Assembly: GCA_947561715.1 (NCBI GenBank)
Contig: OX387204.1
Location: 9,615,001 to 9,679,000, forward strand
Direction of reading: 5' to 3'
DNA length: 64,000 bases
Origin: Ascidia mentula
Lineage: Eukaryota > Chordata > Ascidiacea > Phlebobranchia > Ascidiidae
Below the pieces are notes generated by a model. It saw only the letters and a program-made list of their open reading frames with translations, was not told where the DNA came from and did no database searches. Below are positions 20,534 through 58,078 of this stretch, piece after piece; position 1 is the stretch's first letter, and every line of letters begins with the position of its first letter. Position numbers and translations under genes: made by a program.

Positions 20534-21144
20534 CAGTGGTTCTTATAACCTTTTAAACTCGCCGAACCCCTTGGATCCACTGCAAGCATTCGTCGAACCC
20601 CGATAACGAAAATAATAAGAAAAGCAACAATAGCAATATCCTAATTACATTAAACAGGCTTTTTGACAAAACGGATTTTTTTGTTTTACCGCAACTAGAA
20701 TGTAATGGTGTTCAAAGATGGGTCGGGAAGAAAAGTTAAATTTGCATCATATTTCATAGTTTGCATGCCCGGAGTCTTCACCGTACTTGTTAGCCTAGTC
20801 ACGGGAATGTCTTTTGATTGCACCACAGCATGTAAAAATATGCATTGAAACGCCCTTTTCTGAAGCATAACGATGTCATGTATGTGTTGATTTTTTACGT
20901 CATCCGTAACTACGAACAATTTTGCTATCTAAAATAACAAATAGTTGTCATGTTTATTGTTACATCACAGAAGTGAAACTAGTATCCAACCTCCCCGTTC
21001 CTACTTAACTCAAGAAACTAAATATTTGTGTTTCTGCAAATAATTTAAAAAAAATGTCTGAAATGTTCGCTGATATTTTGTAAACCATTTGACCTTCGTC
21101 GAACCCCTGAAGCATCGCCATCAAACCCAGGGTAAGAACCACTG
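20534..21144. mobile_element. hAT-type MITE with perfect 8-bp target duplication
   Basis: Starts CAGTGGTTCTTA and ends TAAGAACCACTG, 611 bp, flanked by identical ATTTAAGT at 20526-20533 and 21145-21152. Subterminal GTCGAACCCC motifs occur near both ends. The end sequence is shared with a weaker copy at 38333-38684. No transposase coding was recognised. Confidence 0.88.
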
Positions 21145-21442
21145 ATTTAAGTTAACAGACCCATTTTGTATTTCTTAGCTTTCAACTTTTTTTTCATTTC
21201 CGTGAAAAACCACAAAAAGGAATGTATTAATAACGCACATAAACACAAGGTTACATCCATGCACTTAACAAAATGTTTCGCATAGATAAGAAATATCTGC
21301 ATATAATTATGAAATATGTCACATTGTAAAATACATCACAATACTGATTTTTGTTGCTGTTATTTTAGTTTGTAAACATTAAAATAACATAGCCTATCGT
21401 AGCCTGCAATTCACAAACACAAATGGTTTTGCCACAACCACC

Positions 21443-21497
21443 AGCTGCACTGATGAGACCTTACAGGTCGAAACAGTGTGTACACCTGTCTGCAGCT
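21443..21497 (+). ncRNA. Hammerhead self-cleaving ribozyme, type I
   Basis: All three helices and the conserved core are visible. Stem I: AGCTGCA (21443-21449) pairs exactly with TGCAGCT (21491-21497). Core CTGATGA is 21450-21456. Stem II: GACC (21457-21460) pairs with GGTC (21466-21469) around the loop TTACA. Core GAAA is 21470-21473. Stem III: ACAG (21473-21476) pairs with CTGT (21486-21489) around a nine-base loop. Cleavage is predicted after C21490. Because stem I is the open helix, this is type I. Small type I hammerheads are known from Penelope-like elements and retrozyme-type repeats in animals. No second copy or flanking direct repeat was seen within a few hundred bases, so its host element is unidentified. 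In vitro activity is inferred from the fold. Confidence 0.88.
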
Positions 21498-22790
21498 CTC
21501 ATTGACTATTATGGCTCTTTTACGCATACAAATGTTTTTTGTTTTGGATTAAGGTTATGAAACGAAGTAAATAGCATATAGAAGTGCAGTGAACTTCGGA
21601 CCAGGTATTTTACGTCATAATTAGGCATTGTTAAAACACTTTTGCAAAAGCTTTTTGTCTCTATGACACGTTGACAGGAAGTTTAGAATTAAATCATGTC
21701 TGCTTGGAAAACTATATTCGAAAAAGTTTTAGTGTGTTAGTGAGATTTGCGGCAGCGTTTTGTTGGGTCATTTGTCAGAAAAGTTATTAGGCCTGAATTT
21801 GTTGTATGTGGAAGTACCGCAAAGGCAACTTTAAAATAATTTGCTCGATGTTTGTATAGGGAAGGAAAAACTTGTTTTGTCATGTTTAGCAAAAAACTGT
21901 CGTATAAGAAAGCATCCTTGTCTGTGGGTTGTGGGAAAACAGAAATGTGCATATTACTTTGTAATTGATGAAAAACAATGAACTTCACCGGATCGGTAAA
22001 CCAAGCCACCATGATGCCACAGCATTCGGCAACCATTTCGGAACAAAGCAAAGTCATCTTCTACACCAGAAACCCTCATTATCACGCTGTTACAGTGTGA
22101 CATTCGTGCAAAAACCTTCTGCAGAAAATTTGGATATATATGAGGAACTGTGGTTGCACAGGACACTGGCACAGATTAACGTGCAGAGTATGATTACACA
22201 TGCATGCAAATAGTATGTTTGCAATATGTGCCTTGTTTGTTTTCGATTGCGTTAGTTGTTTTGCTATAGCTTTCTATGTCGTTACGGTTGTGCGGCACTA
22301 TAACATACAATGATTATGTGCCTGAAGGCTCGAAAGTTGTCAGGCATCGTGCGATACATTTTTCGTTGGAATTTTATTGGCAGTCAGGTATTATTTCATT
22401 TCTTACTTATCCAGATTTTGTATTTGTATTTTTTTAGTTTTTATTAAGGTTACTTTCCCTTGTGTGGCAGACCTTCGTTTGTACTTAGTTATTTTGCGTT
22501 GCTTTTGTTTTTACACTTTGCAGAAACTTAGTTATTTTACGTTGCTTTTGCTTTTACACTTCGCAGAAACTGCCTCTTCAGGGCGAAATATTTTTTTCTG
22601 CAAATGAAAAACATCTTTAAAAGAGCTATCTGAAAGATTGTCGTAAAAGTTTTACTCAGCAATTACTTTGTAATTGTTTCATTACCAAATCTTTTTAAAA
22701 TTATTTCAGTAATTTAAAATTTTGGATTATTCTTTTTGCATCTTCTATTTAGATTACTATACCTGACTCCACTGCACAATTTTTGTATAG
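21498..22790. other. Intergenic; two adjoining minus-strand open frames of unknown nature
   Basis: Minus-strand frames at 21954-22172 and 21737-22057 overlap in different phases. No family was recognised. A 45-bp direct repeat containing CTTAGTTATTTTGCGTTGCTTTTG occurs twice around 22480-22570. Whether the open frames are a decayed element or chance is undecided. Confidence 0.3.
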
Positions 22791-32179: not shown

Positions 32180-34620
32180 AACAAAAACGTCTTTCTTACG
32201 TTAAATTTGACGTGCAATTGTGGTCGCATTCGGGTTGTATCGAAACGTATCAAATCAACATCTTTCCTACGTTAACATTGACGTGCAATTGTTGTCGCAT
32301 TCGGGTTGTATCGAAACGTATCAAATCAACATCTTTCTTACGTTAACATTGACGTGCAATTGTAGTCGCATTCGGGTTGTATCGAAACGTATCAAATTAA
32401 CATCTTTCCTACGTTAACATTGACGTGCAATTGTGGTCGCATTCGGGTTGTATCGAAACGTATCAAATCAACGTCTTTCTTACGTTAACATTGACGTGCA
32501 ATTGTGGTCGCATTCGGGTTGTATCGAAACGTATCAAATCAACGTCTTTCCTACGTTAACATTGACGTGCAATTGTGGTCGCATTCGGGTTGTATCGAAA
32601 CGTATCAAATCAACATCTTTCTTACGTTAACATTGACGTGCAATTGTAGTCGCATTCGGGTTGTATCGAAACGTATCAAATTAACATCTTTCCTACGTTA
32701 ACATTGACGTGCAATTGTTGTCGCATTCGGGTTGTATCGAAACGTATCAAATCAACGTCTTTCTTACGTTAACATTGACGTGCAATTGTGGTCGCATTCG
32801 GGTTGTATCGAAACGTATCAAATCAACGTCTTTCCTACGTTAACATTGACGTGCAATTGTAGTCGCATTCGGGTTGTATCGAAACGTATCAAATCAACGT
32901 CTTTCTTACGTTAACATTGACGTGCAATTGTGGTCGCATTCGGGTTGTATCGAAACGTTTCAAATCAACGTCTTTCTTACGTTAACATTGACGTGCAATT
33001 GTGGTCGCATTCGGGTTGTATCGAAACGTATCAAATCAACGTCTTTCTTACGTTAACATTGACGTGCAATTGTGGTCGCATTCGGGTTGTATCGAAACGT
33101 TTCAAATCAACGTCTTTCTTACGTTAACATTGACGTGCAATTGTGGTCGCATTCGGGTTGTATCGAAACGTATCAAATCAACGTCTTTCTTACGTTAACA
33201 TTGACGTGCAATTGTGGTCGCATTCGGGTTGTATCGAAACGTATCAAATCAACATCTTTCTTACGTTAACATTGACGTGCAATTGTAGTCGCATTCGGGT
33301 TGTATCGAAACGTATCAAATTAACATCTTTCCTACGTTAACATTGACGTGCAATTGTTGTCGCATTCGGGTTGTATCGAAACGTATCAAATCAACGTCTT
33401 TCTTACGTTAACATTGACGTGCAATTGTGGTCGCATTCGGGTTGTATCGAAACGTATCAAATCAACGTCTTTCCTACGTTAACATTGACGTGCAATTGTA
33501 GTCGCATTCGGGTTGTATCGAAACGTATCAAATCAACGTCTTTCTTACGTTAACATTGACGTGCAATTGTGGTCGCATTCGGGTTGTATCGAAACGTTTC
33601 AAATCAACATCTTTCCTACGTTAACATTGACGTGCAATTGTAGTCGCATTCGGGTTGTATCGAAACGTATCAAATCAACGTCTTTCTTACGTTAACATTG
33701 ACGTGCAATTGTGGTCGCATTCGGGTTGTATCGAAACGTTTCAAATCAACATCTTTCCTACGTTAACATTGACGTGCAATTGTAGTCGCATTCGGGTTGT
33801 ATCGAAACGTATCAAATCAACATCTTTCCTACGTTAACATTGACGTGCAATTGTAGTCGCATTCGGGTTGTATCGAAACGTATCAAATCAACGTCTTTCC
33901 TACGTTAACATTGACGTGCAATTGTGGTCGCATTCGGGTTGTATCGAAACGTTTCAAATCAACATCTTTCCTACGTTAACATTGACGTGCAATTGTGGTC
34001 GCATTCGGGTTGTATCGAAACGTATCAAATCAACGTCTTTCTTACGTTAACATTGACGTGCAATTGTGGTCGCATTCGGGTTGTATCGAAACGTTTCAAA
34101 TCAACATCTTTCCTACGTTAACATTGACGTGCAATTGTAGTCGCATTCGGGTTGTATCGAAACGTATCAAATCAACATCTTTCCTACGTTAACATTGACG
34201 TGCAATTGTAGTCGCATTCGGGTTGTATCGAAACGTTTCAAATCAACATCTTTCCTACGTTAACATTGACGTGCAATTGTGGTCGCATTCGGTATGTATC
34301 GAAACGTATCAAATCAACGTCTTTCTTACGTTAACATTGACGTGCAATTGTGGTCGCATTCGGGTTGTATCGAAACGTATCAAATCAACGTCTTTCTTAC
34401 GTTAACATTGACGTGCAATTGTGGTCGCATTCGGGTTGTATCGAAACGTATCAAATCAACGTCTTTCCTACGTTAACATTGACGTGCAATTGTGGTCGCA
34501 TTCGGGTTGTATCGAAACGTATCAAATCAACGTCTTTCCTACGTTAACATTGACGTGCAATTGTAGTCGCATTCGGGTTGTATCAAACGTTTCAAATCAA
34601 CGTCTGGGTTACGTCAATAA
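32180..34620 (+). repeat. 71-bp satellite, about 34 tandem copies
   Basis: The unit contains GTCGCATTCGGGTTGTATCG, AAACGTATCAAATCAACGTC, TTACGTTAACATTGACGTGC and AATTGTG. Copies begin every 71 bases from 32220 to 34563 with no length drift until the last, which loses a base. Each carries four ACGT words. Variant positions (GTGG/GTAG/GTTG; TATC/TTTC; CTTACG/CCTACG; CGTC/CATC) recur in blocks; stretches starting at 32504 and 32732 recur at 33143 and 33371, a shift of 639 = 9 x 71, so a nine-unit higher-order duplication is present. 71 is not a multiple of three, so the many 60-65-codon frames over it are not one coding sequence. Confidence 0.95.
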
Positions 34621-40249: not shown

Positions 40250-42000
40250 CCAAAAATCAATCACTTTCCGGGCCATAGAATTTCCTATAATTTTGCACAA
40301 GGCTTGCCTAGAGCTTGCAGGTGAACGTGAAATAAGTTAAAATACCAACCGGCTCCACAATTCCCAGCGAAATGGACTCAAAGGCAAGTCATTGTGTGTG
40401 ACTGCATAAAGGCTGCTTGTTAGCGCAATGGCGGCAGAGACATCTTGACATATTAGCGAAAATTCAAACACTTTCCGGAACATAGAATTTCCTATAATTT
40501 TGCACAGGGCTTGCCTAGAGCATGCAGGTGAACGTGATATAAGTTAAAATACCAATCGGCTCCACAATTCCCAGCGAAATGGCATTAAATACAGGTCATT
40601 GTGTGTGACGGCATATAGAGGCTGTTTGTGAGCGCAATGGCGGCGGAGACATCTCGATATGAAGCGCAAATTCAAACACTTTCCGGGCCATAGAAATTCC
40701 TATATTTTTGCACAGGCCTTGCCTAGAGCTTGCAGGTGAACGTGATATAAGTTAAAATACCAACCGGCTCCACAATTCCCAGCGAAATGGCCTCAACTTT
40801 CCGAATAATTATTGTATTGGAAACTGTTTATCGGCTTCATCAAAACGGTACATTACAACTTTTCAATAGAATGTTGATAGAATCGAAGCGAACAGAATAG
40901 AATCCAATAGAATAGCTTTTACAGGTAGATACTGATGGGCTTTTTGAAGCTCTCCATACTGAGCGCTGATTGGTCAATAATGTCACGTGATATCATGAGG
41001 CGCTTGAAGTAATATAATACAAGAACATAGGTGTGGTGTGACATATGCATAGGAGAACATTCTATGTGGTAAACAGGATATTGAATGAATCACTTTAGTC
41101 AAGAACATTCGATGGACCAATCATTTGGATTACATTATGGGATTAATCAATACATGTGCAAAGCTGCACGCAAAACATTACGCAATATAAGCACTAGTTT
41201 CTGTGACGTATGTTACAACAACATCCCTTTTTTCTAAATTGTTTAAAAGAAAGCAGGGGTTGAAAGGACTTCCTCGGATGCAAATATAAATATATAAAAA
41301 AAAACATTTATGGTAGACATAGTTTCGAAGGTGGGACTATTTCCGCGTAGACCTCAGTCATCAATACCTAGTTGTTTGTAACAATGGCCATAAGTGTTGC
41401 GACATAATGGGATAACCTTGCAGTGGTTTGAAGTATTTATATATAGTGAGCGGCCGTTAAGTCTATTTCGCTGGGAATTGTGGAGCCGGTTGGTATTTTC
41501 ACCTGCATGCTCTAGGCAAAAAAAATTATAGGAAATTCTATGGCCCGAAATGTGTTTGAAATTTCGCTTATATGTCAAGATGTCTCCGCCGCCATTGCGC
41601 TCACAAACAGCCTCTATGCCGCCACACACAATGACCTGCCTTTGAGTCCATTTCGCTGGGAATTGTGGAGCCGGTTGGTATTTTTATTTATATCACGTTC
41701 ACGTGCATGCTCTAGGAAAGCCCTGTGCAAAATTACAGGAAATTCTATGGCCCGAAAAGTGTTTGAATTTGCGCTTATTTGTCAAGATGTCTCTGCCGCC
41801 ATTGCGCTCACAAACAGCCTCTATGCCGCCACACACAATGACCTGCCTTTGAGTCCATTTCGCTGGGAATTGTGGAGCCGGTTGGTAGTTTCACTTATAT
41901 CACGTTCACCTGCATGCTCTAGGCAAGCCCTGTGCAAAATTATAGGAAATTCTATGGCCCGGAAAGTGTTTGAATTTGCGTTCTTATTTTTGCTTTTTTT
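40250..42000. repeat. Inverted pair of ~210-bp unit arrays (structure 1)
   Basis: The left array (40250-40800) holds about 2.6 tandem units containing ACTTTCCGGGCCATAGAA, ATTTTGCACAGGGCTTGCCT, CCGGCTCCACAATTCCCAGC and GCGCAATGGCGGC. The right array (41460-41990) holds about 2.6 of the same units in inverse orientation. Between them is repeat copy B (40937-41218). The units are diverged relatives of those in 42196-46385. The flank near 40045 (ACGCATGAGTGAACACTG) resembles the terminal sequence of that second structure, so both probably belong to one transposon superfamily. Confidence 0.75.
40937..41218 (-). repeat. Repeat copy B, inverse of 35855-36137
   Basis: Sits between the two arms of structure 1 and matches copy A in inverse orientation, for example AATGTCACGTGATATCATGA near 40979. 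Confidence 0.85.
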
Positions 42001-43120
42001 AAACTCTTTTGTCGTCTGATCGTGTTTATGTTTTTTGTTTTGTTGGTTTGTTGGTTTGATACATTCTTATGGCAATGATGCTGGATTGCTTGCTTGAGAA
42101 GGTTAAACTGAAGATTTTGTTCAGAATTAGTTTGCTACATATTCCTTTTTATGCGTTGTTTTGTGTCTTCTCAAAAGAGTTTGAATTGAAATGGTGAAAT
42201 ATATTTCACGCATGACTGAACACAACTTCAACAGATTTACCATAAACAAAACACAAGTATATGCCCAAATTAGAACAAAATGATCATCAAACGTCAATGT
42301 AACTTTGGCACCCCTCCGTGGTCAATTCTTACTATTTTGTTTCACAAAATATATATATTGAGGCAGCAATACTTGCGAATTTGGATGCGAACTTGCACAA
42401 AGCATAAAATGAAGAAGTCGCTTGATATAGGCGAACATTTGAAACCTTTCCGGGACGTGAGATTTTTTTTAATTTTGCACAGAGCTTGCTTGGAGCAGGC
42501 AGATGAACGCGGTATAAGTTAAAATCCCAACAGTTTTCAAGTTTCCCAGCGAAATGAACTTAACTGCAGGACACTGGCTGTGACGACATAGAGGGCTTTA
42601 CGCGCGTAGAAGCTGGCCACAAGACCCGTAGAAGCTGGCCACAAGAATTTAAAACCTTTCCGGGCATGAGATTTTGTTTAATTTTGCACAGAGCTTGCCT
42701 GGAGTTAAAATCCCAACAGTTTTCAAGTTAACCAGCGAAATGAACTGCAGGTCACCGGCTGTGACGCGCGTATAGGCTGGCCACAAGACCTCTTGCACAG
42801 GCGAACATTTCTTATAATAAAAAATGCAACTACCAGTAAATACCCTTTCTTTTACGCTGTTCCATGTCACATATTTCACTACATCGTCATTGTATAATGT
42901 CAAATTTTCTTGAGAAAGTTTATTCGCCAAATAATGACCCGAGTTAACACCCTATGTGAACAATAACAGACACAAGCCAAAACATTACTCCATGTGAAAC
43001 AGGCAATGGTAATGGTATGACAATGGTGATAGTAAAACCGAACCACGAATACAGCGTTTTTAAGTTTTCGAGTTTTTGTGAAAATTGTCAGAAGAAAACC
43101 GGGGACAAACGTAGAGCTGC

Positions 43121-44079
43121 TCAACGCGAAATCAAAAATATATCCAAACCCAATTGAACACAGGCAGTATTGCATAAAAAACAGATAGAAAACAGATAGT
43201 TTCGTATTAACATTATGTAAACCAAGAAGTTACAGCGCAATCTTGCAATACGAAAGGTATTTCGGTAATTTCCTAATTTGACTGGACTTTTTAAAGCAAT
43301 TGTTTTCTTTTCTGTACCAACAAGATGTTCCACAGCCAGTAAAGTATGGATATGCCCTTCTAGGCTGTCCATGTAATGGCGCAGCCCTACGTCCGAGAGA
43401 TGGAGTTGGTCGCTCCAATTATCTTTGTCGTTGGAGATATTAAAATCCAAGAAGGTGAGCCCATACTCCTCGGCAAGGTTGTGCAGTACCCAGTTGGCTT
43501 TTTGGACGCAATGTTCATGAAAACCAGACAGTTGCAAGGTCCTAGCCATCACAATCTGCATACAAATTATACAAAATAAATGTATATGTGTTGCTAAAAA
43601 ATGAAGTTAATTTTAACGTTACAGTCACAGGGAAAAAATGTAGTTTAACTCCTGGCAGTAACAGGAACAAACAGCAATTTTGTATAATACATGCAACCAA
43701 CCTGAGACTGCGGGTACGTTTGTTGGCACACCTCGATCAGATGTTGAAAATCGGTCCTGATACTGTTATGGTGGTGATCCGCATGCCGAGAGACCAAGTC
43801 GTTCGTACCAAGAGCCAGAATGATAAAATCAACTGACCCGAACCTTTTCCCGTACATGAGTTCCTCCGCTCCATGGTTCAGTGTTCCCCCTGGAATAGAA
43901 GTAGCACTAGTAAAAAGTTCACTATTCGACGATACCACCTGGGGGCAGACAATGTTCCTCCCGTTGCTGTCGGTCACCAACAACACGGAAGGAAGTGGCG
44001 ACCCCTCAGCACGGAGGTAACATGTCTGCTTTCCGGAAACTCCAACTTTATATTTCTTGGGCGGCGTTCTCCTTCCCAT
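43121..44079 (-). CDS. SGNH/GDSL hydrolase-like protein, two exons, inside the TIR element
   Basis: Exon 1 is 43702-44079, exon 2 43121-43555; the donor CAG|GTTGG and acceptor TATGCAG|ATTG keep phase 0, giving about 270 residues. SGNH signature blocks are visible: block I VLLVTDSNGRN with the nucleophile Ser, block II-like Gly in IPGGTLNHG, block III IILALGTNDL with the Asn, and block V DQLHLSDVGLRHY with the Asp-x-x-His pair. So the catalytic set Ser/Gly/Asn/His appears present. SGNH folds act as esterases or as non-catalytic binding modules; similar domains occur in ORF1 of some LINEs and in various transposons. The N-terminal basic stretch MGRRTPPKKYK could be a nuclear signal. The tail after about residue 190 is low-information. 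Substrate unknown. Confidence 0.65.
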
Positions 44080-44842
44080 CGTCGATTGCGGCTTCGGTCT
44101 TTCGTCGCTTTACACAGCAGTGTCGTTGGTGGTTGAGAAATTTACGTAATGAGCTCGTCGGGTACGGATGGTTTCACACGGTTGCGGCTTCGATCTTTCG
44201 TAGTTATTCACACGTAGAAAGTTGATAAATAGCAGTTTTCTGTCAGTAAAAATGATAGGTTGATGTGAAATGCGACGGATCTTAATTAGTTGCTGAACCA
44301 TACTTTTTCTATTAACAGTACAAACCAAACCTGACGGCTTCTTATTGTTGTATTTTCTGAAAGATTAATGAATTGTAACTATTTTTTTAACGCTTCTCTG
44401 GCATTTCGCTGGGAAAACTTGATAACTGTTGGGATTTTAACTTATACGGCGTTCATCTGTCTGCTCCAGGCAAGCTCTGTGCGAAATTTAAAAAAATCTC
44501 ATGGCCCCGAAAGGTTTCAAATGTTCGCCTGTACAAGAGGCCTTGTGGCCAGCCAATACGCGCGTAAAGACCTCTATGTCGTCACAGCGGGTGACCTGTA
44601 GTTAAGTTCATTTCGCTGGAAAACTTGAAAACTGTTGGGATTTTAACTTATACGGCGTTCATCTGCCTGCTCCAGGCAAGCTCTGTGCAAAATTAAAAAA
44701 ATCTCATGGCCCGGAAAGGTTTCAAATGTTCGCCTGTACACGAGGCCTTGTGGCCAGCCTATGCGCGCGTACAGGCAGGGCTCTATGCCGTCACAGCCGC
44801 TGACCTGCACTTAAGTTCATTTCGCTTGGAAACTTGAAAACT

Positions 44843-45722
44843 GAAATATGGAAGTGACGTTCTTCTGGTTCAAAATCAACAAATATACACCTTTTGTTGA
44901 AATAAAACTTGTATTTTCTGACGTTTCGCCTGCACAGTGCACACACGACTAGATTCTTCAGAGAATAAAACAGTCACAGTCACAATGGGGATTTTGAACC
45001 AAAGGGCAAAGAAATTCAGCTACGAAAAAGTACAAAAGGCCGCAACAGCTAAAACACAGCGGGACATAAATCAATGGACAATATCGATCACGGGTCAAAA
45101 GGCCAAACATAGGAAACAAAATGTCATGAATGGTTACGGGCGAAATAGCGGAACACGGGCGAGAGTATTTTTCCATCACTGCGATTTAACACATTAGGCA
45201 GCGAATTAAAAAATAATTTTCCACAACCAACCGTTTTGCCAAAATTGTTTCTTGTTTAAATACTTTTGCTTCCTTCCAATGGATACGGTGGTCAGTGTCA
45301 AGCATGTGAGCACATAGAGCAGATTTATTGGGTTCCATATTGCGTATGGCTGCCTTGTGTTCTTTAATACGCGACGTTAAATTGCGCTTAGTCTGGCCAA
45401 TATAGGACACAGTGTTACAATCAAGGCAAGGTATTTAGTAAACTACACCGATCATTTGAAGCATGGAAATACGGTCTTTGGGTTTGGGAAACATGTTTTC
45501 TAAAGTGCACACCGGTTTCATAACAACTTTTACTCCAGTGGCGTTGAGTATTCTAGATATCCGCTCAGAAACTCCCTGTACATATGGTATGGAAGTGAAT
45601 GCTGTATATGTTTGTGTGGGGTGTAAGATTTAGGTTAGCGGGAAATTTGTTTAGTTATTCTTTTTTAAACAAAAGGTGTATATTTGTTGTTTTTCACCAG
45701 AAGAACGTCACTTTCATATTTC
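44843..45722 (-). mobile_element. Penelope-like retroelement fragment (GIY-YIG endonuclease region)
   Basis: The minus strand encodes VSYIGQTKRNLTSRIKEHK, the GIY-YIG nuclease start with YIG, followed by HMLDTDHRIHW and ENYF, as in Penelope-like elements. Upstream sequence (about 45480-45600) resembles the linker GVSERISRILN...KPVCTLENMF that joins reverse transcriptase to the nuclease. Ends 44843-44905 and 45668-45722 are inverse repeats around ACGTTCTTCTGG. On the minus strand at 44915-44962, CTGAAGA...GCGAAACGTC resembles the hammerhead carried at Penelope termini. Most of the reverse transcriptase is absent. Confidence 0.75.
44915..44962 (-). ncRNA. Degenerate hammerhead-like motif of the Penelope fragment
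   Basis: Minus strand reads CTGAAGA, a potential hairpin with GTGTGTGCAC, then GCGAAACGTC. The core CTGATGA is changed to CTGAAGA and stem III would be at most two pairs, so at best a weak or dead ribozyme. Flanks TATTCT and AGAAAATA could form stem I. Confidence 0.35.
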
Positions 45723-46761: not shown

Positions 46762-49700
46762 ATGGGCACATCAATTGCGTTTCCACCAGAACTGCAGTGC
46801 TGTCCTAAACCATTCGTTGTCTTAACTGGACTTGACATTACATTTAATGCTGTGCACAAATCTATTTGGGATGCTTTTAGCAACAACAGGTATAAAAATA
46901 GTTTTATCCAAATTACATTCAACCTATCTTATCTTGCCTTAATAAGCAATATTTGTTTGACAGTTATTTGAATTGTGCTGTTAAATACAAGAAAAAAATA
47001 AAATTTACCCCAACCCCAAACCCACTGAAATGGCCTACATTTTTAACATCCCTAAAACATTGCCCACAAAATAACATTTGTTTAACATTGTGCCTTCATT
47101 GATAAATAGAACCCCATTTTGAGGCCAAAATGTATGCATTGTTGAATGAATAAAATCATAATGATATGCATATTGTATTGTTTAAATAGAAGTATAATAA
47201 AGTTCTCATTCAAATCCATGTTGTCATGTATGGCCTAACCATATTAATAATTTTTGTAATTGGCAGAAGGCCAGATCGCTTGCAGGTGAAGTTTGCATGT
47301 CTACCGGGAGATCATGCGTTTCCCAGGTGCAAAACTAAAAGATCATCCTATGACTGGTATATTCCAAAAGGCCTGCTAAAAACCAAGTGGATGAACAAGC
47401 ACTTAAATGAAGTTCCTGCTTTGGTAGTGGTGTTTTTTGAATTGGATTGGGATGAGCTGGCTTGGAGAGAAAGACACTTAGCTTGTGCTTCTAGAGTCCA
47501 GGTTGTTAGAAGCAGTTTGCAAGGTAGCCTTATATATACAGATATACTCATTGTACCAGTGATACACATCACCAAAATACAGTTAACATTTTTTTGTAAC
47601 AGGCCGAAACACAAAAGTAGCTGTGGTTTTGATACAAAAAAGTACCCCTTTGCCCCCTGGTGAAGATATGGTTGCTGCTGAGAGAGCTGCAGCTTTGTGT
47701 AGTGCATGTGATCTTTCTTCCAAATCACTTTTTGTTTTACCACACAGTGACCATTTGCTTGGTTATATAGTAAGGTATAAATTTTTTAAACATATTTTAT
47801 ATGAAACTGTGTTGTAGGAACTTAACTATTTTCATTAGTTTTCGTAGTCATATGAACTTGACTAAGGCATAATGCTGATCATCATGATAGATTGTAAAAG
47901 ACTAGATAGTGATAAACAAAATAATGGAAATTCTTCCGAAAAGTATGTGTGGGAAGAAAGTCTGTTTAACCCCCATGGTTTGCTGTATTTTTGTCATCAT
48001 ACTTTTGTGATTCTGCAGATTAGAATCAGCATTTGTTGAGTTGGCACATACATACTATCACTCAGAACTACGGCGAGTGAAAGCACACAAGGAGTTTCTT
48101 AACAAAACTACACACCAGCTGCTGTTTCCAAGACATCAATTTAAAATTGCATTTTTTAGTGAATTTATGCAAGATTTCTCAACTGCTCTGAGGCACTATC
48201 AACAGGTATTGTATTTTTGTTCATACATGGAGTTTAGCAGTCTACTACTATGTTGAGAAATGTTGTATGTTGTAATAAAAATATTTTGCATAAGATTATT
48301 TAAAACTTTTTTGTTTCTATCCATAAGTTTAGCTTGTGTTGTTAAATTTGTAGTCATATAACCACATACATGAGTTGAGAACAAATGCAACAAATAACTT
48401 GGAGGTGAAGGTTGTTGGTGGATTTGTCAACTACAAAATTTGCAGAATATTTTTTCTTCAATTAAATGCACCATTGGATGCACTCAACCAATTTCAGCGG
48501 CACATTGAACAGTTTAAGCTGCAATTTGGAATTCCTGATTTAATGTTTGAGCATTGCGCCTGGTTAAGTCAACAATACCTATTGTTTGGAGATTTGTTTA
48601 ATATTGCAATTGATCAAGGTCTTGCTGCAATTCAAACGCAACATCCTGGATTTTACTATAAACAGGCCTCCCATTTTGCCACACTAAGAAAAAAATTTTC
48701 TTGGTCTGTTCAAGCATCTGTTGGCAATCTAAGCTACCCGTCACCAGATCCTTTAGAAACAGAGTGTCTTGAATTTTTTGGCCAGCGACCTTGGCGACAA
48801 GGCCATCAAAGAATTGATCCACCAGATGTGGAATTGGAAAGTAATGGTATCTTGGCTTTAAAAATACAAGAGTTGCAAGTTGATCACTCATGGAACATTA
48901 TTCCATTAATTAGTTCTGCAGTTTCTCAGTTCAAAAAGTTTCATTGTCCACGATTAAAACGTCATTTAACCATCAAAATGGGAATTGAGTATTTCCATGC
49001 AGAAGATTATAGCAAGGCCATTGCACTGTTGTGTAGATCAGTTCCTCAATATCGCGACTGCAAGTGGTGCTCAATATTAACGCAGCTTGTTTCCCTTGTG
49101 TTTGAATGCTCATATATGCTTGGCGATGTTCAAAATTACATAACTTCTGCCTTGGAACTGATGTTTGACCTCTCTGAGCTACCACCAGATAAAAAAACAA
49201 AAATTCAAAGAAGTATGTGTGATGTGCTGTGTGGAAAGATGCCCAAGTTCATTTTGCTTTCATCAAAGATTGTTAGTAAAAGCAATGATAGTCCACCAAG
49301 TGTTTGGAGAACATGGACTGAAAAATCTTCTTCTTCAATCTTGCATGTGGAAATGTCTGATTTGCTTCCATGTGTAGAATGCAAAGTAAAATTCTCTTTG
49401 CCAGAGGTTTCAATTGATTCATGTGTGCAGGTTGAGGTGAGGAGTTTAGTATATTGCCTATGCTTTACTTTTAACAGCTTGTTTATGTTGTCAGGTGTAC
49501 ACAAGAATTACATGTCTTGAACCAATGGAGTTTACAGAACTGTCAGTTTACTTCAGTAATTCATCCTACAATTCAAATTGTGTTGTGACTGACACTCAAT
49601 GTCATGGTGCACTCTATTATGAACCTAACGAAATTAAGCGGCACATGTTTGAATTTCCTGTTGAATATGAAGACCTGCATAAGTTTATACAGGTAATTAC

Positions 49701-51339
49701 AATCGGCTTGTTGGTGTTTGGTAAATTTATGTGTTCATGAGCAATGTTTAGGTAAAGAGTGTCAAATTAAAGCTTGGATTTAAAGCTGGAGGTTGCATTC
49801 TTCACCTAAATTGGCTTAAGGTCACTGATACTTACAATAACTCAAAGTCAGAAACTATTTGCAATCCAAACCAATCAATGCTCAATTGGAAAAATATTGT
49901 GGAAAGAAAGTCATTGCAAGTTATTGAAAGAAGATCAAGATTGCATGTTAATGTCATAAACGAACCACCAGCGTTGACTAATGAAGCATTTCCTATTAAA
50001 TTTTTAATCACTTCAGAAGAAAACCTGTCTGAAAATATTAATGTATTGGTTACATTGAAACCTGATGATCATGTTGAAGATTTCTTTCAATCTTCCTACA
50101 TATCCATGTCAGATAATCCACTTATACGACCCTGCAGAACTGTTGAAATGGAGTTTAAATCCTTGAAACAGAATGAAAAGTTTGAAATGGTTGTTTATTT
50201 TCGCTCAGCAGGCGCTGGCACTGCTACCTTAAACGTGCAATCAAATTACACTGTATCAAATTTACCTGTGCAGTCCACAGGTGCTGCTGACAAAGAACTT
50301 AACCACATCAATTGTCCCAGCAAGTCCAGTTTTAATGTGTGTTTTGATGTGATAGACCCATTTAGTTTTACTGCTCACTTGACATCAATGAATATGCAAT
50401 CTGTTTCATCAGTTTATTTTGGTCAGCCATTTATGATCCTTGCATCTTTAACTGCTCATAGCCCATGGCCAATTGAAATTCTTTCGAAGTGTCATGCTCT
50501 TCCCAACAACTCAGTCTTTAAGGTAATTTCTCATCTCCAACAAGATGAACTATGTGTTTTTTCTAATGAAGGAGAGAGTGTTGTAAAATGCTTGGTGCTT
50601 AATGCCCCCCTGGGTGATGGAAAACAAACTAAAGGTTTGTAACAAGTTAATGTACATTAAACCTAGAGATGGTAACATTTTATAGGTTTTTTTCAAATCT
50701 TCAAACATGTTCTTTTTGTGGCTTATTAAGTAGTAACTTGTGTTGTATTTTAGTTGAAATGGCTGAATTGGGCATTTACACAGTTAAGTGGAAAAGACAA
50801 ACAAGTAACAACCCACCAACAGAAACAATGCTGAAAATGCCTCGTGTACCAGTTCGGTATGATGATTTACTTACTGAATAGTGTGAAATAAAAGAAAAAA
50901 AATTACAGGTTGTTTCCAGTCACAATTTCAGCAAATTTTCCAGCACATGGGACCTTAAGACAGTTAATGAAAGTGGGATTTGACATACAAAACACAAGCA
51001 AAGAATTTAAAATCGTTGAAATAAGCTTTGAATCTGTTGAATCATTTATGTTTTCTGGACCAAAGCAGACAAAACTATTTTTATCACCATTAGACTCGCA
51101 TTCAATTGAATGTATTCTTATACCTCTTGCATTAGGATATCAGGTGAGTTAATAAGTTAAAAGGTTTCTATAAATCTGCCAACATAAACTATTTTTAGGC
51201 TCTGCCAAAAATCCAAATTCGTGGTGTTCATATGCATGAAAAAGGTACCTCTGATGTTTTACAAAGGGATGATTTGAATGCTTTCATGCTACATTCTTCT
51301 ATCCCTTCTGAAATTTACATAAAACCAAAGTTGTCATAA
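46762..51339 (+). CDS. TRAPPC11: Trafficking protein particle complex subunit 11 (Foie gras)
   Basis: TRAPPC11 is a subunit of TRAPPIII, which activates Rab1 in ER-to-Golgi traffic and autophagy. Ten coding exons join in phase: 46762-46889, 47267-47523, 47603-47774, 48019-48205, 48354-49436, 49495-49692, 49752-50634, 50754-50856, 50909-51143, 51199-51339, giving 1128 residues (human 1133). N-terminal blocks: [79 protein letters not shown]. The Foie-gras domain follows ([42 protein letters not shown]). The C-terminal Gryzun-like beta region includes NEPPALTNE and PAHGTLRQ and ends IYIKPKLS. The 1083-bp fifth exon is the largest. The start matches the family (short leader, then PELQCCPKP), so the N terminus is secure. 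Confidence 0.97.
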
Positions 51340-53575: not shown

Positions 53576-56500
53576 CCTCCCCGCCAATATTGGGTTATGG
53601 AACAACGCAAAATGACACTAATAACCATAAAATTTGGGAGGCTTCGGACGCCGTTTCGAGCGCCGGGGTAAACTCTCCCCGTGTGACAACTCCTGCGCCG
53701 CAGGTGAATGAGTATTGTCAGGACTAACGATAGTCTCAGGGGTGACCGTGTCGCGCGTATCGGCACGACCGGACTCTTCATCATCGGATGCATCGCGTGA
53801 TGTTGGGTTATCTGCTGGTTCATCTCCTGGCTCGTCATCTTGTGATGATGCATATCTGGGTCGAAGTTGGTCAATATGTCGTCTCCATATCGGACCTCGG
53901 GGAATAACTTTAACCCGAACACTTCGACTTCCGCAACGTTTGATGACCAGTGCGGGAACCCATCGTGGGTCTTTGTCATGCCGTGGTCCGTAATACAGTG
54001 CATAGCAAGGATCACCGACGTTGTATGTCCTGTTAACGCGTGTAGTGAAAACACCGTGTTTAACTCCTTGCAACTGCTTTTTCTGGACATCATGTACTGG
54101 AGAAGGCATCATGGTGTCAATCTTTGTTCGTATTTGCCTTCCGTTTAAAAGTTCACTTGGGAAGTATCCGCTACTGTTTGGTATACGGCGGTATTGCATG
54201 AGAAAAGTTCTCAATGCGTTCATGGGCGTCTCAGAAGACTTTCGTAATGCCTTCTTGAAAGTTTGCACCAAGCGCTCCGCTGCCCCATTGGTCGCAGGAT
54301 GATAAGGTGCGCCTGTAAGGTGAACAATCCCCCTTTCTTTGCAGTAGTTTCGGAACTCCTCCGATGTAAACGATGGTGCATTGTCGGACACTATTGAGTG
54401 TGGATATCCGAAATGCGCGAAATCTTGGTCGAGAAGATCCATTGTTGCTTTAGCGGTGATTGCTTGAGTACGGTGAATGCATGGATACTTCGTATAAGCA
54501 TCAATTACAACCAACCAGTTGTAACCCATAAAATTTATGGCATGGTCGACATGAATTCGACTCCATGGCTTCTCGGGTAGTATCCATGGATGTACGGGAG
54601 CCTTCGGCATTACGTTTCTGTGCTCATCACATGTGCCACACTTTCGACACATGTCCACAATGTCTCGATCTATGTTTGGCCAGTACACCACTGTCCTGGC
54701 CAGTTGCTTCATGCGCTGCATGCCGAAATGGCCCAAATGCAGTAGCTGCAAAACTTTGTCACGTAGTTTTGCTGGAATGACGATTCTGGAGCCATACATA
54801 AGAACTCCATATGACGTAGTGAGAAAATTACTCACTTTCCGGAATTCTTCCGTCGGTTCATCGGAAGATTGTCTTGGCCAACCTTCGTGCGTGTATTGAA
54901 TCACCTTGCTCAATATTGGGTCTTTTGAAGATTCTTTTCGTAGTGCTGAGGAGTCCATTTGCACTTGCATTCAGACTGTTTCGATGGCACAAACGATGTC
55001 TACGTCATCAGCACTTTCCTCTCCGTCGAAAGTTGTATCATCGCCTTGTGGAAGTCGGCTTAAAACATCAGCATTATTGTGTTCGTGGGTTTTTCTATAC
55101 TCGATGGTGTACTGAAATTGGTTCAAGAAAAGTGCCCATCGAGCCAACCTGTTGGCTGCCAAAGCTGGTGTAGGCTGTTGCGGACCAAATAAAGACATCA
55201 GTGGTTTATGATCCGTTATCAGGATGAATCTTCTTCTAAACAAATATTGAAAGAACTTCTTTAGAGCGTAAACGATTGACAAAGCCTCCTTTTGAATTTG
55301 ACTGTAATTCCTCTGGCTTTGTGTCAAAGTTTTAGAAACATTGGCAATTGGTCGCTCACTGCCGTCGGGAAAACGGTGAAACAACGTAGCACCAATTCCA
55401 ACACTTGATGCGTCACAGGCAATACCAACAGGAATGGATGGATTGAAATGAACCAACACTTGGTCTCTGGATAGTAAGTCCTTCAGCTGATTGAAAGAAC
55501 GTTCTTCTTTGTGACTCCATTTCCAAGGAATGCCTTTCTTTGTGAGACGGTAGAGTGGTTCTGCTACAGTTGAAAATTCTGCAGGCAAAAATTTTGCATA
55601 AAATTGTACAGATCCAAGGAAAGACCGCAGCGTCGGTACATCGTGCGGAGCAGGCATACGTTGTACAGCGTCGACTTTGGAACCCTTCGTGATGCCCTTG
55701 TTGGAGAGAACATGGCCAAGGTACTCAACCTGCTGTTGAGCAAATTTGCATTTTTGCTTCCTGCAACGTAAGCCTTTGTCTTGGAGCCGTTGCAACAAAC
55801 GTTTGAGATTGTGAAGGTGGTCCTTGGCAGACGAACCACTGACCAATATATCATCTAGATATACTGCTACACCCGGTAGGTCTTTAGTGATATCATCCAT
55901 AATTTCTTGAAAATAAGCTGGCGCAGAACTGATACCAAAAGGCAATACGTGAAGCCATAACCACCACCTAACTTCCGCATTAAATCTTCTGGTAATGGCA
56001 ATGGGTGACGATGAACTTCCAATTGTGAATTGACAGTCACGGAATAATCACCACAAATTCTTAAAGCAGGCTTTTGCGAAGAAGTGATTGATTTGCGGAC
56101 CGGAACTATTGGCGTACCCCAGTCGTTGAACTTCACTGGAGTCCAAATTCCTTTGCTTATCCCGGAATCTAAAACCTGGGACAAATCACTCTGCATAGCG
56201 AACGGAACTGAACGCGGTTTGCAGAAAACTGGTTTTGCGTCGTCCTTAAATTGTACCTCCAGTTCATAATCTTGAAGACAGCCTAAATTGGGCTTAAACA
56301 GTTCTGCGAATTCACTGCACAACTTGACACACTCTTCATGTAGTGATATGTCTTGCGGTTCTTGAGCGGTTACGGCTTGTAATACCTCTGCAGCTTGTAA
56401 GCTTGACTTGCCGTACAGAACTTTGTCCAACGAAATACCCATTTTCTGTATTCCGTTCCGCCCCACCAAATTCAAACGTGGAATGTCGCAGACGTTGAAA

Positions 56501-57845
56501 TGAAGGTAAGCTACTTTTCCGGAATCTGCATAACTGGTAGCAGACGTAAATGTGCCCATTACCGGCAAGTTGTGCCTGCTTGCAGACTGATACTGGGATG
56601 TTGCTTTGTGCAGCTGTGGAGAACCAATCTTCTTCCATGTTTCTTTTGACAGAAAATTTCCGCCGGTAGCTGTATCAAGTTCTATGTTCAGCGAACGATC
56701 GTTGATGCAAATTGGAACTTCCAACTTGGGCGTGGCTGCTTCAATACTGGAAACGCAATTCAGTTTCTCAATTCTTTTAACGCCATGGGACGAGCGCTGT
56801 CGAATCTTTTTGCGGCAAACGGATTCCAAGTGTCCAGTTAGGTGACAAAAATGGCAGGTTGCATTCTTGAAACGACATTCGGAAGCCTGATGCGAAGTCT
56901 TGCCACATCGATAACATTTCCTCCCTTCAGGTAATTGCACCGTCCTCGAATCCACTTTACGTTTCTCCCACGGCTTAGCTGTAGCACGTACCTTGAACAC
57001 CGAAGTCGATGGCTGCATCCCGTAAACAGTTTCTTTAGCCACTTTGGCAGCATCTTCGGTTTCAACCGCAATGTCAATCGCACGAGCAAAACTCAAGTCG
57101 TCATCCTTTGTCCTAAACAGAGCTTTTAAAACCGCCTCGTTTTCAATGGAACAGATAAAACGAGTGCGTAAAGCTTCATCCAAGGGATCTGTGATGGATG
57201 CAAAGTCGCAAGTTGCTGCGCTTTGTCGAATGCGAACAGCGAACTCTTGAATTGTTTCTCCCGGCTTGCGCTTCATGTCGGTCCAAAACTTGAACCTTTC
57301 GCGGACTATGAAACGTTTGGGGTCAAACTGAAACTTCATATGTTGGACGATTTCTTCTAACGTGAGCTCATTGATGTCTCTTGGTGGCGATTCCTGTGCA
57401 GCCAAATTGAAAAGCATCTTGTACACCGTTGAAGATTGATTCGTCAAAAATACCTTGGCCAGTCGATCGTCAGGTACCAAATGAGCTTTGGCAAACGTGC
57501 AAAACCGGGACCAGTAGTCAACCCACAGCTCTGAAGTCGAATCAAAAGGCAAAAAATTTGGCGTATTTAGATGAGTTACCGTTGATGCCGTTCCTTCCGT
57601 CGATCCTTCACTCGAGCGAGGCTTCCCCAGAATTGCTATCATCGCCTCCATTTGTTCTTGGTGTCGACGTTCTTGTTCTCCGTGTTGTTCTTGGTGTCGA
57701 CGTTCTTGTTCTTCAAGTTGACGTTCTTGAACTTCGCGATGACGTTCTTGGGCTTCGCGTTGACGTTCTTGGGCTTTAAGTTGACGTTGCATCATCTCCA
57801 CAAGCTTCTCCATGACCAGAAATCCCATCCTCGTCGCCAAATAAC

Positions 57846-58078
57846 TGTTGTATTCTTCAGTCACAAACAGTTCAAGTGTATTGATACAAAACGGTGCGCA
57901 GGTTTTATAGGCAAAGCCAACACGCGAACAACGCCAGGAACGCAATTATTAGCCACTGAGGTGCGCAGTACATCCACAGGCGTGAGTCGCATTGCCAGAC
58001 ACGCTGATTGCACGGCGAGTCTTAAGCGCCGTTTTGTAAGGTCAACTTTGGGACACATAATGATACAATTACACAACA
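57846..58078 (-). repeat. 5' LTR of the gypsy element
   Basis: 233 bp. On the minus strand it is followed by GTTATTTGGCGACGAGG, where the primer-binding site should lie. Confidence 0.93.

Follow-up and report, generated by a model that had tools for sequence, protein, structure and literature searches.

Does the hammerhead motif that lies in a repeat-rich, intergenic place of the ascidian Ascidia mentula genome belong to a mobile element and, if so, which enzyme brought it there? The initial annotation had described this motif as having no recognisable host element around it. We have analyzed the window (the whole stretch of 64,000 nucleotides in which the motif was found) together with the relatives of the motif over the genome. 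The mitochondrial COX1 of the assembly has AGR codons as glycine, at positions where COX1 in general has this residue, and TGA as an amino acid, which is the ascidian code. The reading that we prefer, and consider likely, is that the window holds a truncated, probably inert copy of a non-LTR retrozyme family of A. mentula that would have been mobilised by Penelope-like elements resident in that genome.

The hammerhead motif and its insertion

Every part of the type I hammerhead that had been annotated was confirmed at its position. Stem I has 7 bp, with AGCTGCA (21443–21449) paired with TGCAGCT (21491–21497), and is followed by the core segment CTGATGA (21450–21456), a stem II made of GACC and GGTC with the loop TTACA, the GAAA at 21470–21473 and a stem III of 4 bp (A-U, C-G, A-U and G-C), after which come a bulged T and then a loop of the GUGUAC type. 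The predicted cleavage nucleotide is C21490. The minimum free energy fold contains the same stems I and II, and the folding energy was unexceptional (z −1.35; an equally good or better fold was obtained for 22 of 200 shuffles). A descriptor composed of the core, a 4-bp stem II, a 3-bp stem III and a 5-bp stem I found a single site in the window and none on either strand of 200 dinucleotide-shuffled windows, which bears out the earlier judgement that such a motif is very unlikely by chance.

Covariance models, of which the Rfam type I model had been proposed as a check, gave a divided answer. The Rfam scan of the window returned no family at gathering score, an outcome that the initial annotation had named as refuting, and in a relaxed scan the best hammerhead matches were RF03152 (19.9 bits, over a longer alignment) and RF00008 (19.2 bits). 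Genome-wide, RF00163 (Hammerhead_1, gathering score 34 bits) had no match over the cut-off among the 73 scored of 27,659 candidates; 32 of these 73 were weak matches, the best of them (26.7 bits) elsewhere than the window site, which was absent from the matches among those scored. On the other hand, a model built on 27 copies of other subfamilies, excluding the window subfamily, gave the window site 74.7 bits (E 1.4e-17) and the next site 13.7 bits. Since a model from this genome detects the motif, we consider the Rfam failure a limit of the models and not an absence of the motif.

Over the genome, a strict pattern, in which the letters of stems I and III are those of this family, had 1,536 matches, vs. 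0 for the reversed pattern, and the looser core CTGATGAN{9,20}CGAAAC had 4,433 in 196 Mb, vs. 38 for the reversed pattern, a set that also takes in minimal hammerheads of the Penelope type (the GAAACGTC type). A chance hammerhead-like sequence, which could be argued from the lack of an Rfam match over threshold and the unexceptional folding energy, has practically no probability left and is refuted by these shuffle and reversed-pattern controls. The motif is real, and its activity as a ribozyme is predicted.

Some 40 other places in the genome are homologous to approximately 21430–21532. In the aligned copies the 3′ end is common (GCGCATAT, the copies finishing in ...GGCTCTTTTGCGCATAT) and the 5′ end differs from copy to copy. 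The 3′ region of the window copy departs from the majority letters at a single position inside the element, 21522. The inner edges of the 12-bp repeats that flank it (Table 1) coincide with the start and the stop of the family homology, and the duplication scores 9, a value also reached by 13 of 158 controls when the left edge is left free. The copy is a single truncated piece with a single arm that, on its own, carries no tandem units and cannot display a one-sided tail. Judged by its sequence, it is a 5′-truncated member of a retrozyme-like family, ordinary for that family, and probably inert.

Table 1. Features of the insertion, in positions of the window.
Feature	Positions	Strand	Basis
Whole insertion: 5′-truncated retrozyme-like copy of 97 bp, with ribozyme and family 3′ end	21431..21527	+	Homology; ends by eye
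Type I hammerhead ribozyme	21443..21497	+	Parts read in the sequence, fold, covariance model, shuffle control; predicted cleavage 3′ of C21490
Element 3′ region; contains the "tail", absent from one arm in most head-to-head insertions	21498..21527	+	
Left target-site duplication, ACAAATGGTTTT	21419..21430	.	11 of 12 letters equal to the right copy; inner edge where family homology begins
Right target-site duplication, ACAAATGTTTTT	21528..21539	.	Starts directly after ...CGCAT, the family 3′ end

The window contains other features. An LTR-type retroelement occupies 53618–57945 on the minus strand; it has integrase (rve, H2C2) and RT-RNase H, and its frame of 692 aa matched nothing in Pfam. At 48375–50642 of the plus strand there is a gene of the Foie gras/TRAPPC11 type; Foie-gras_1 of Pfam matches the frame 48375–49520 (E 2.9e-44) and the next frame has no match. 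Tandem arrays are found at 32186–34605, where a unit of 71 bp is repeated about 34 times with 96% matches, and at 40252–44843, where there are three arrays with units of about 205–207 bp whose consensus sequences look, by eye, partly inverted to each other.

Units, duplications and decay of the family

The alternative of a domesticated ribozyme, used by the host at the window site, had been put forward in the initial annotation. The window ribozyme has the majority letters of a set of 30 copies over all its 55 bases, as a kept motif would, in a set that was selected by similarity to the window. However, it is one of many copies, with the edges of an insertion, and across the 30 copies the core positions depart from the majority at about the same rate as the other positions of the ribozyme (0.91 vs. 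0.84 differences per site), the core being intact in 22 and broken in 8. Domestication is thus very unlikely and, since the core is no better kept than its surroundings, it seems that copies, once inserted, are free to decay. The invariant core seen in alignments of copies picked by the core pattern is a selection effect and not evidence. Covariation of the stems within the family was not significant (91 of 500 shuffles) because the family is too uniform. The two forms in which loop III is most often found, GTGTACAC and TGGCCA, are both palindromes, something that might suit ribozyme dimers.

At one locus, L091, a single insertion located between two copies of ATAACACCTAAT (12-bp duplications) contains six units in direct orientation together with a partial one that is inverted. 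Its cleavage sites are spaced by 285, 286, 285, 285 and 285 bp, so that the units have 285/286 bp, within the range of about 150–450 bp of retrozyme tandem units (a comparison at the level of the family), and the G+C content of the unit is 47.4%, below the 50% that characterizes retrozymes. Retrozyme RNA circles are described as highly self-paired; the circular fold of this unit had −89.6 kcal/mol, a little better than in shuffles (z −2.26 vs. 100 shuffles; paired 67% vs. 63%). An array like that of L091 would be the expected product of several rounds on a circular RNA.

Outside the L091 array we used a duplication test anchored at the 3′ end of the family, in which 7 of 22 copies scored at least 10, vs. 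1 of 158 swapped controls, and the remaining 15 scored less than 10; in L044, one of the seven, about 14 nt separate the repeat from the arm. When the search was not anchored, copies were indistinguishable from controls. The duplications were of 5–18 bp in the cases read, and target-site duplications longer than 4 bp, as retrozymes have, are present in L091, in the 7 of 22 anchored copies and, with 11 of 12 letters, in the window. In L036, a copy of about 99 bp is found inside a repeat with TAAAT duplicated, and the empty version is located in the window at about 21019–21023 (by eye). The repeat, which serves as empty site for that copy, is diverged and common to L036 and window 20537–21126 (66–77% identity).

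The same family could in principle be a hammerhead satellite DNA, spread by recombination without reverse transcription; there is a 285-bp tandem array, and some copies clearly owe their number to the larger repeats that contain them (L083–L089). Against this, the matches are dispersed over nine large contigs and the copies read have common 3′ ends, variable 5′ ends and, in part, target-site duplications. This explanation is disfavoured, and we give it hardly more than a marginal chance.

By its sequence characters, the family conforms to the metazoan non-LTR retrozymes, an element type already described, here in A. mentula. The initial annotation was right in substance when it suspected a non-autonomous family with no recognisable host element (the strict pattern gives its number of matches). 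The element type is described in PMC7229834 (Cervera and de la Peña, 2020), where metazoan retrozymes are defined. As presented there, these have, like the Ascidia family, a type I hammerhead of canonical size, tandem units of about 300 bp, a G+C content under 50%, duplications of more than 4 bp and co-resident Penelope-like elements. In the 285-nt unit we noticed no LTR, primer-binding site or polypurine tract, which non-LTR retrozymes are without. The difference is that the Ascidia loci read are often single truncated copies or head-to-head pairs with a one-sided tail, and the main text of PMC7229834 does not contain the words "inverted," "truncat," "tail" or "head-to-head." The LTR retrozymes of plants (PMC4918200) are also described as non-autonomous and hammerhead-bearing, but they have LTRs and type III hammerheads according to PMC7229834, in contrast to the type I of the window family. 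The hammerhead repeats of newt and axolotl, as described in PMC7229834, share with the Ascidia family the type I hammerhead, the tandem units (330–350 bp) and the palindromic loop III, although their stem III has 1–2 bp instead of the 4 bp of the window family, a likeness by description and not by unit sequence. For tunicates, the literature search gave one relevant paper, on Didemnum vexillum, an ascidian for which nine type I hammerhead loci are given, and no report of such an element for A. mentula; none of the titles and abstracts listed reported a tail in retrozymes, in a search that left most subscription journals outside.

Head-to-head pairs and the one-sided tail

Among 100 listed of the 1,536 strict matches, neighbours at no more than 600 bp were 10 "−+", 0 "+−" and 5 "++," all of the last in the L091 array. 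In 32 head-to-head pairs the family 3′ end was found on one arm only in 27, on neither in 4 and on both in 1, a count that keeps the L014 row and one L044 row (both joining arms of neighbouring insertions), one L049 row that shares an arm with another, and L062, one point under the tail threshold. When loci that had been sampled twice, or are nearly the same (L053/54, L074/75/77/78 and L083–L089), are merged, the one-sided tail appears in 17 of 22 rows. By eye, the untailed arm ends about 0–12 nt past stem I and the tailed arm some 24–32 nt further. The last of the merged groups, L083–L089, is one head-to-head insertion at six sampled places of contig C1 (L088 and L089 are one place), with flanks much alike; this insertion is carried along in a larger repeat. 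Another reading of the head-to-head copies, a DNA transposon whose terminal inverted repeats hold the ribozymes, was rejected, as the arms differ by the tail, the 5′ ends vary and so do the duplication lengths.

There is a known counterpart of this pattern. Penelope elements are described in PMC3846280 with inverted pLTRs, duplications of 8–10 bp, a 31-bp tail on one pLTR and the head-to-head order as the most frequent one. In PMC11167929 a Penelope protein is reported to cut and extend both strands, with reverse transcription starting internally at two neighbouring sites, which set the limits of the tail; no difference in start site was seen there from one strand to the other, and the tail is termed unique to Penelope-like elements. 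The Penelope-like elements that carry minimal hammerheads (Cervera and de la Peña, 2014, as referred to in PMC7229834 and PMC7761336; anatomy in PMC3846280) are thus similar to the Ascidia retrozymes in the head-to-head arrangement, the tail of about 30 bp on one arm, the short duplications and the hammerhead near the 3′ end. At the level of the family, the head-to-head order and the tail of about 30–40 bp on one arm of Penelope-type insertions are found in the retrozymes, with tails of about 24–32 nt. Penelope-like elements encode, however, a reverse transcriptase and a GIY-YIG endonuclease, whereas the window family has a 285-nt unit and a hammerhead with a 4-bp stem III. We have not filed it as a Penelope-like element because the 97-bp insertion and the 285-nt unit are too short for both domains.

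Retrozymes and Penelope-like elements had both been named as possible hosts in the initial annotation, and both occur in this genome. In the three loci read with minimal hammerheads (L023, L073 and L076/L092), the frames just upstream resemble Penelope C-termini. Pfam GIY-YIG was over the cut-off in the L076 piece, fell short in the L023 piece (19.8 vs. 22.6 bits) and had no match in the L073 frame tested, which was not the frame nearest its hammerhead. Using the L076 piece as query of a genome search, the 150 scored of 1,219 candidates all had E ≤ 0.001, with open frames up to 841 aa. The neighbours at no more than 5 kb among these 150 C-termini were 20 "−+," 1 "+−," 1 "++" and 3 "−−." The excess of "−+" in retrozymes and Penelope-like elements indicates that the RNA 3′ ends point outward in both. 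Four of the five Penelope-like pairs fetched have a one-sided tail and a duplication (the fifth, L106/L107, is uninformative), with tails that by eye measure about 61 (L098/L099), 39, 27 and 25–30 nt; in the pair L102/L103 the duplication consists of a TA repeat. L063 has a one-sided tail of about 33 nt and an 11-bp duplication. In the minimal hammerheads of the Penelope type (L023, L061, L063, L073, L076, L079, L096 and L098–L101), by eye, an additional base seems to separate CTGANGA from stem II, and there seems to be GAAACGTC or GAAACGTT with a stem III almost absent.

The candidate mobiliser

The anatomy of the retrozyme insertions supports the Penelope machinery as mobiliser. The complete element would be a unit of about 285 nt with one type I hammerhead. 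Tandem copies would be transcribed and their hammerheads would cut the RNA into monomers, which a host ligase may close into circles. A reverse transcriptase would then copy the circle directly into a chromosomal site that has been cut, with short duplications as a result, and several rounds on the circle would produce the tandem arrays. We infer the self-cleavage, the circular RNA and the identity of the reverse transcriptase; as to the last, the Penelope-like elements found in this genome are the candidate because of the shared anatomy, i.e., head-to-head arms, RNA 3′ ends outward and a tail of about 24–32 nt on one arm only.

The explanation that competes best is that the same family was moved like a SINE by a LINE, its head-to-head copies being the result of LINE twin priming. 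LINE-type matches in long open frames are present, among them endonuclease matches in frames up to 1265 aa, and the variable 5′ truncation and the duplications of variable length fit LINEs as well. Twin priming, however, inverts the 5′ part of the RNA, while here both arms carry the same 3′ part, with starts some 24–32 nt apart, and the aligned copies show no poly(A) or simple-repeat 3′ end. Besides, the best 150 of 1,254 other reverse transcriptase candidates, a set that was not chosen for 3′ ends, had 0 "−+" neighbour pairs within 10 kb and 1 "+−." As a second control, none of 27 LINE endonuclease matches was less than 5 kb from another (by eye), a weak result, as this domain is far from the 3′ end. 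Altogether we consider movement by a LINE improbable, although clearly less so than a satellite or a domesticated ribozyme. Among the reverse transcriptase (RVT_1) matches of the genome there are some in open frames of 19,197, 10,416, 8,955 and 3,977 aa (contigs C51, C49, C15 and C21, respectively), which are perhaps long arrays without stops.

Returning to the Penelope-like elements, a short ATATNNNTGGC-like resemblance between their tails and those of the retrozymes was rejected as shared sequence by a shuffle test, in which 198 of 1000 shuffles reached the summed score, i.e., there is no significant likeness. Because the tail sequences are not alike beyond chance, recognition by the Penelope protein would perhaps rest on the structure or on the hammerhead region.

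The mobiliser of animal retrozymes is left between LINEs and Penelope-like elements in PMC7229834 (where the latter appear as a strong candidate) and in PMC11722881, and it is also left unsettled in PMC7761336. What makes this family of interest is its insertion anatomy, which points to reverse transcription of the Penelope type. A signature termed unique to Penelope-like elements, when found in retrozyme insertions, turns the question of the mobiliser into counting tails plus one in vitro assay, and in this genome short retrozyme insertions are numerous and occur alongside Penelope-like elements whose open frames are long. In a wider sense, we find it rather more probable than otherwise, with less assurance than for the A. 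mentula family, that metazoan retrozymes are parasites of Penelope-like elements, whose protein would take the circular ribozyme RNA, cut both target strands and start at two internal sites, hence the tail. If this is true, more than 1,000 copies in A. mentula record it, among them rolling-circle products that a single target-site duplication encloses.
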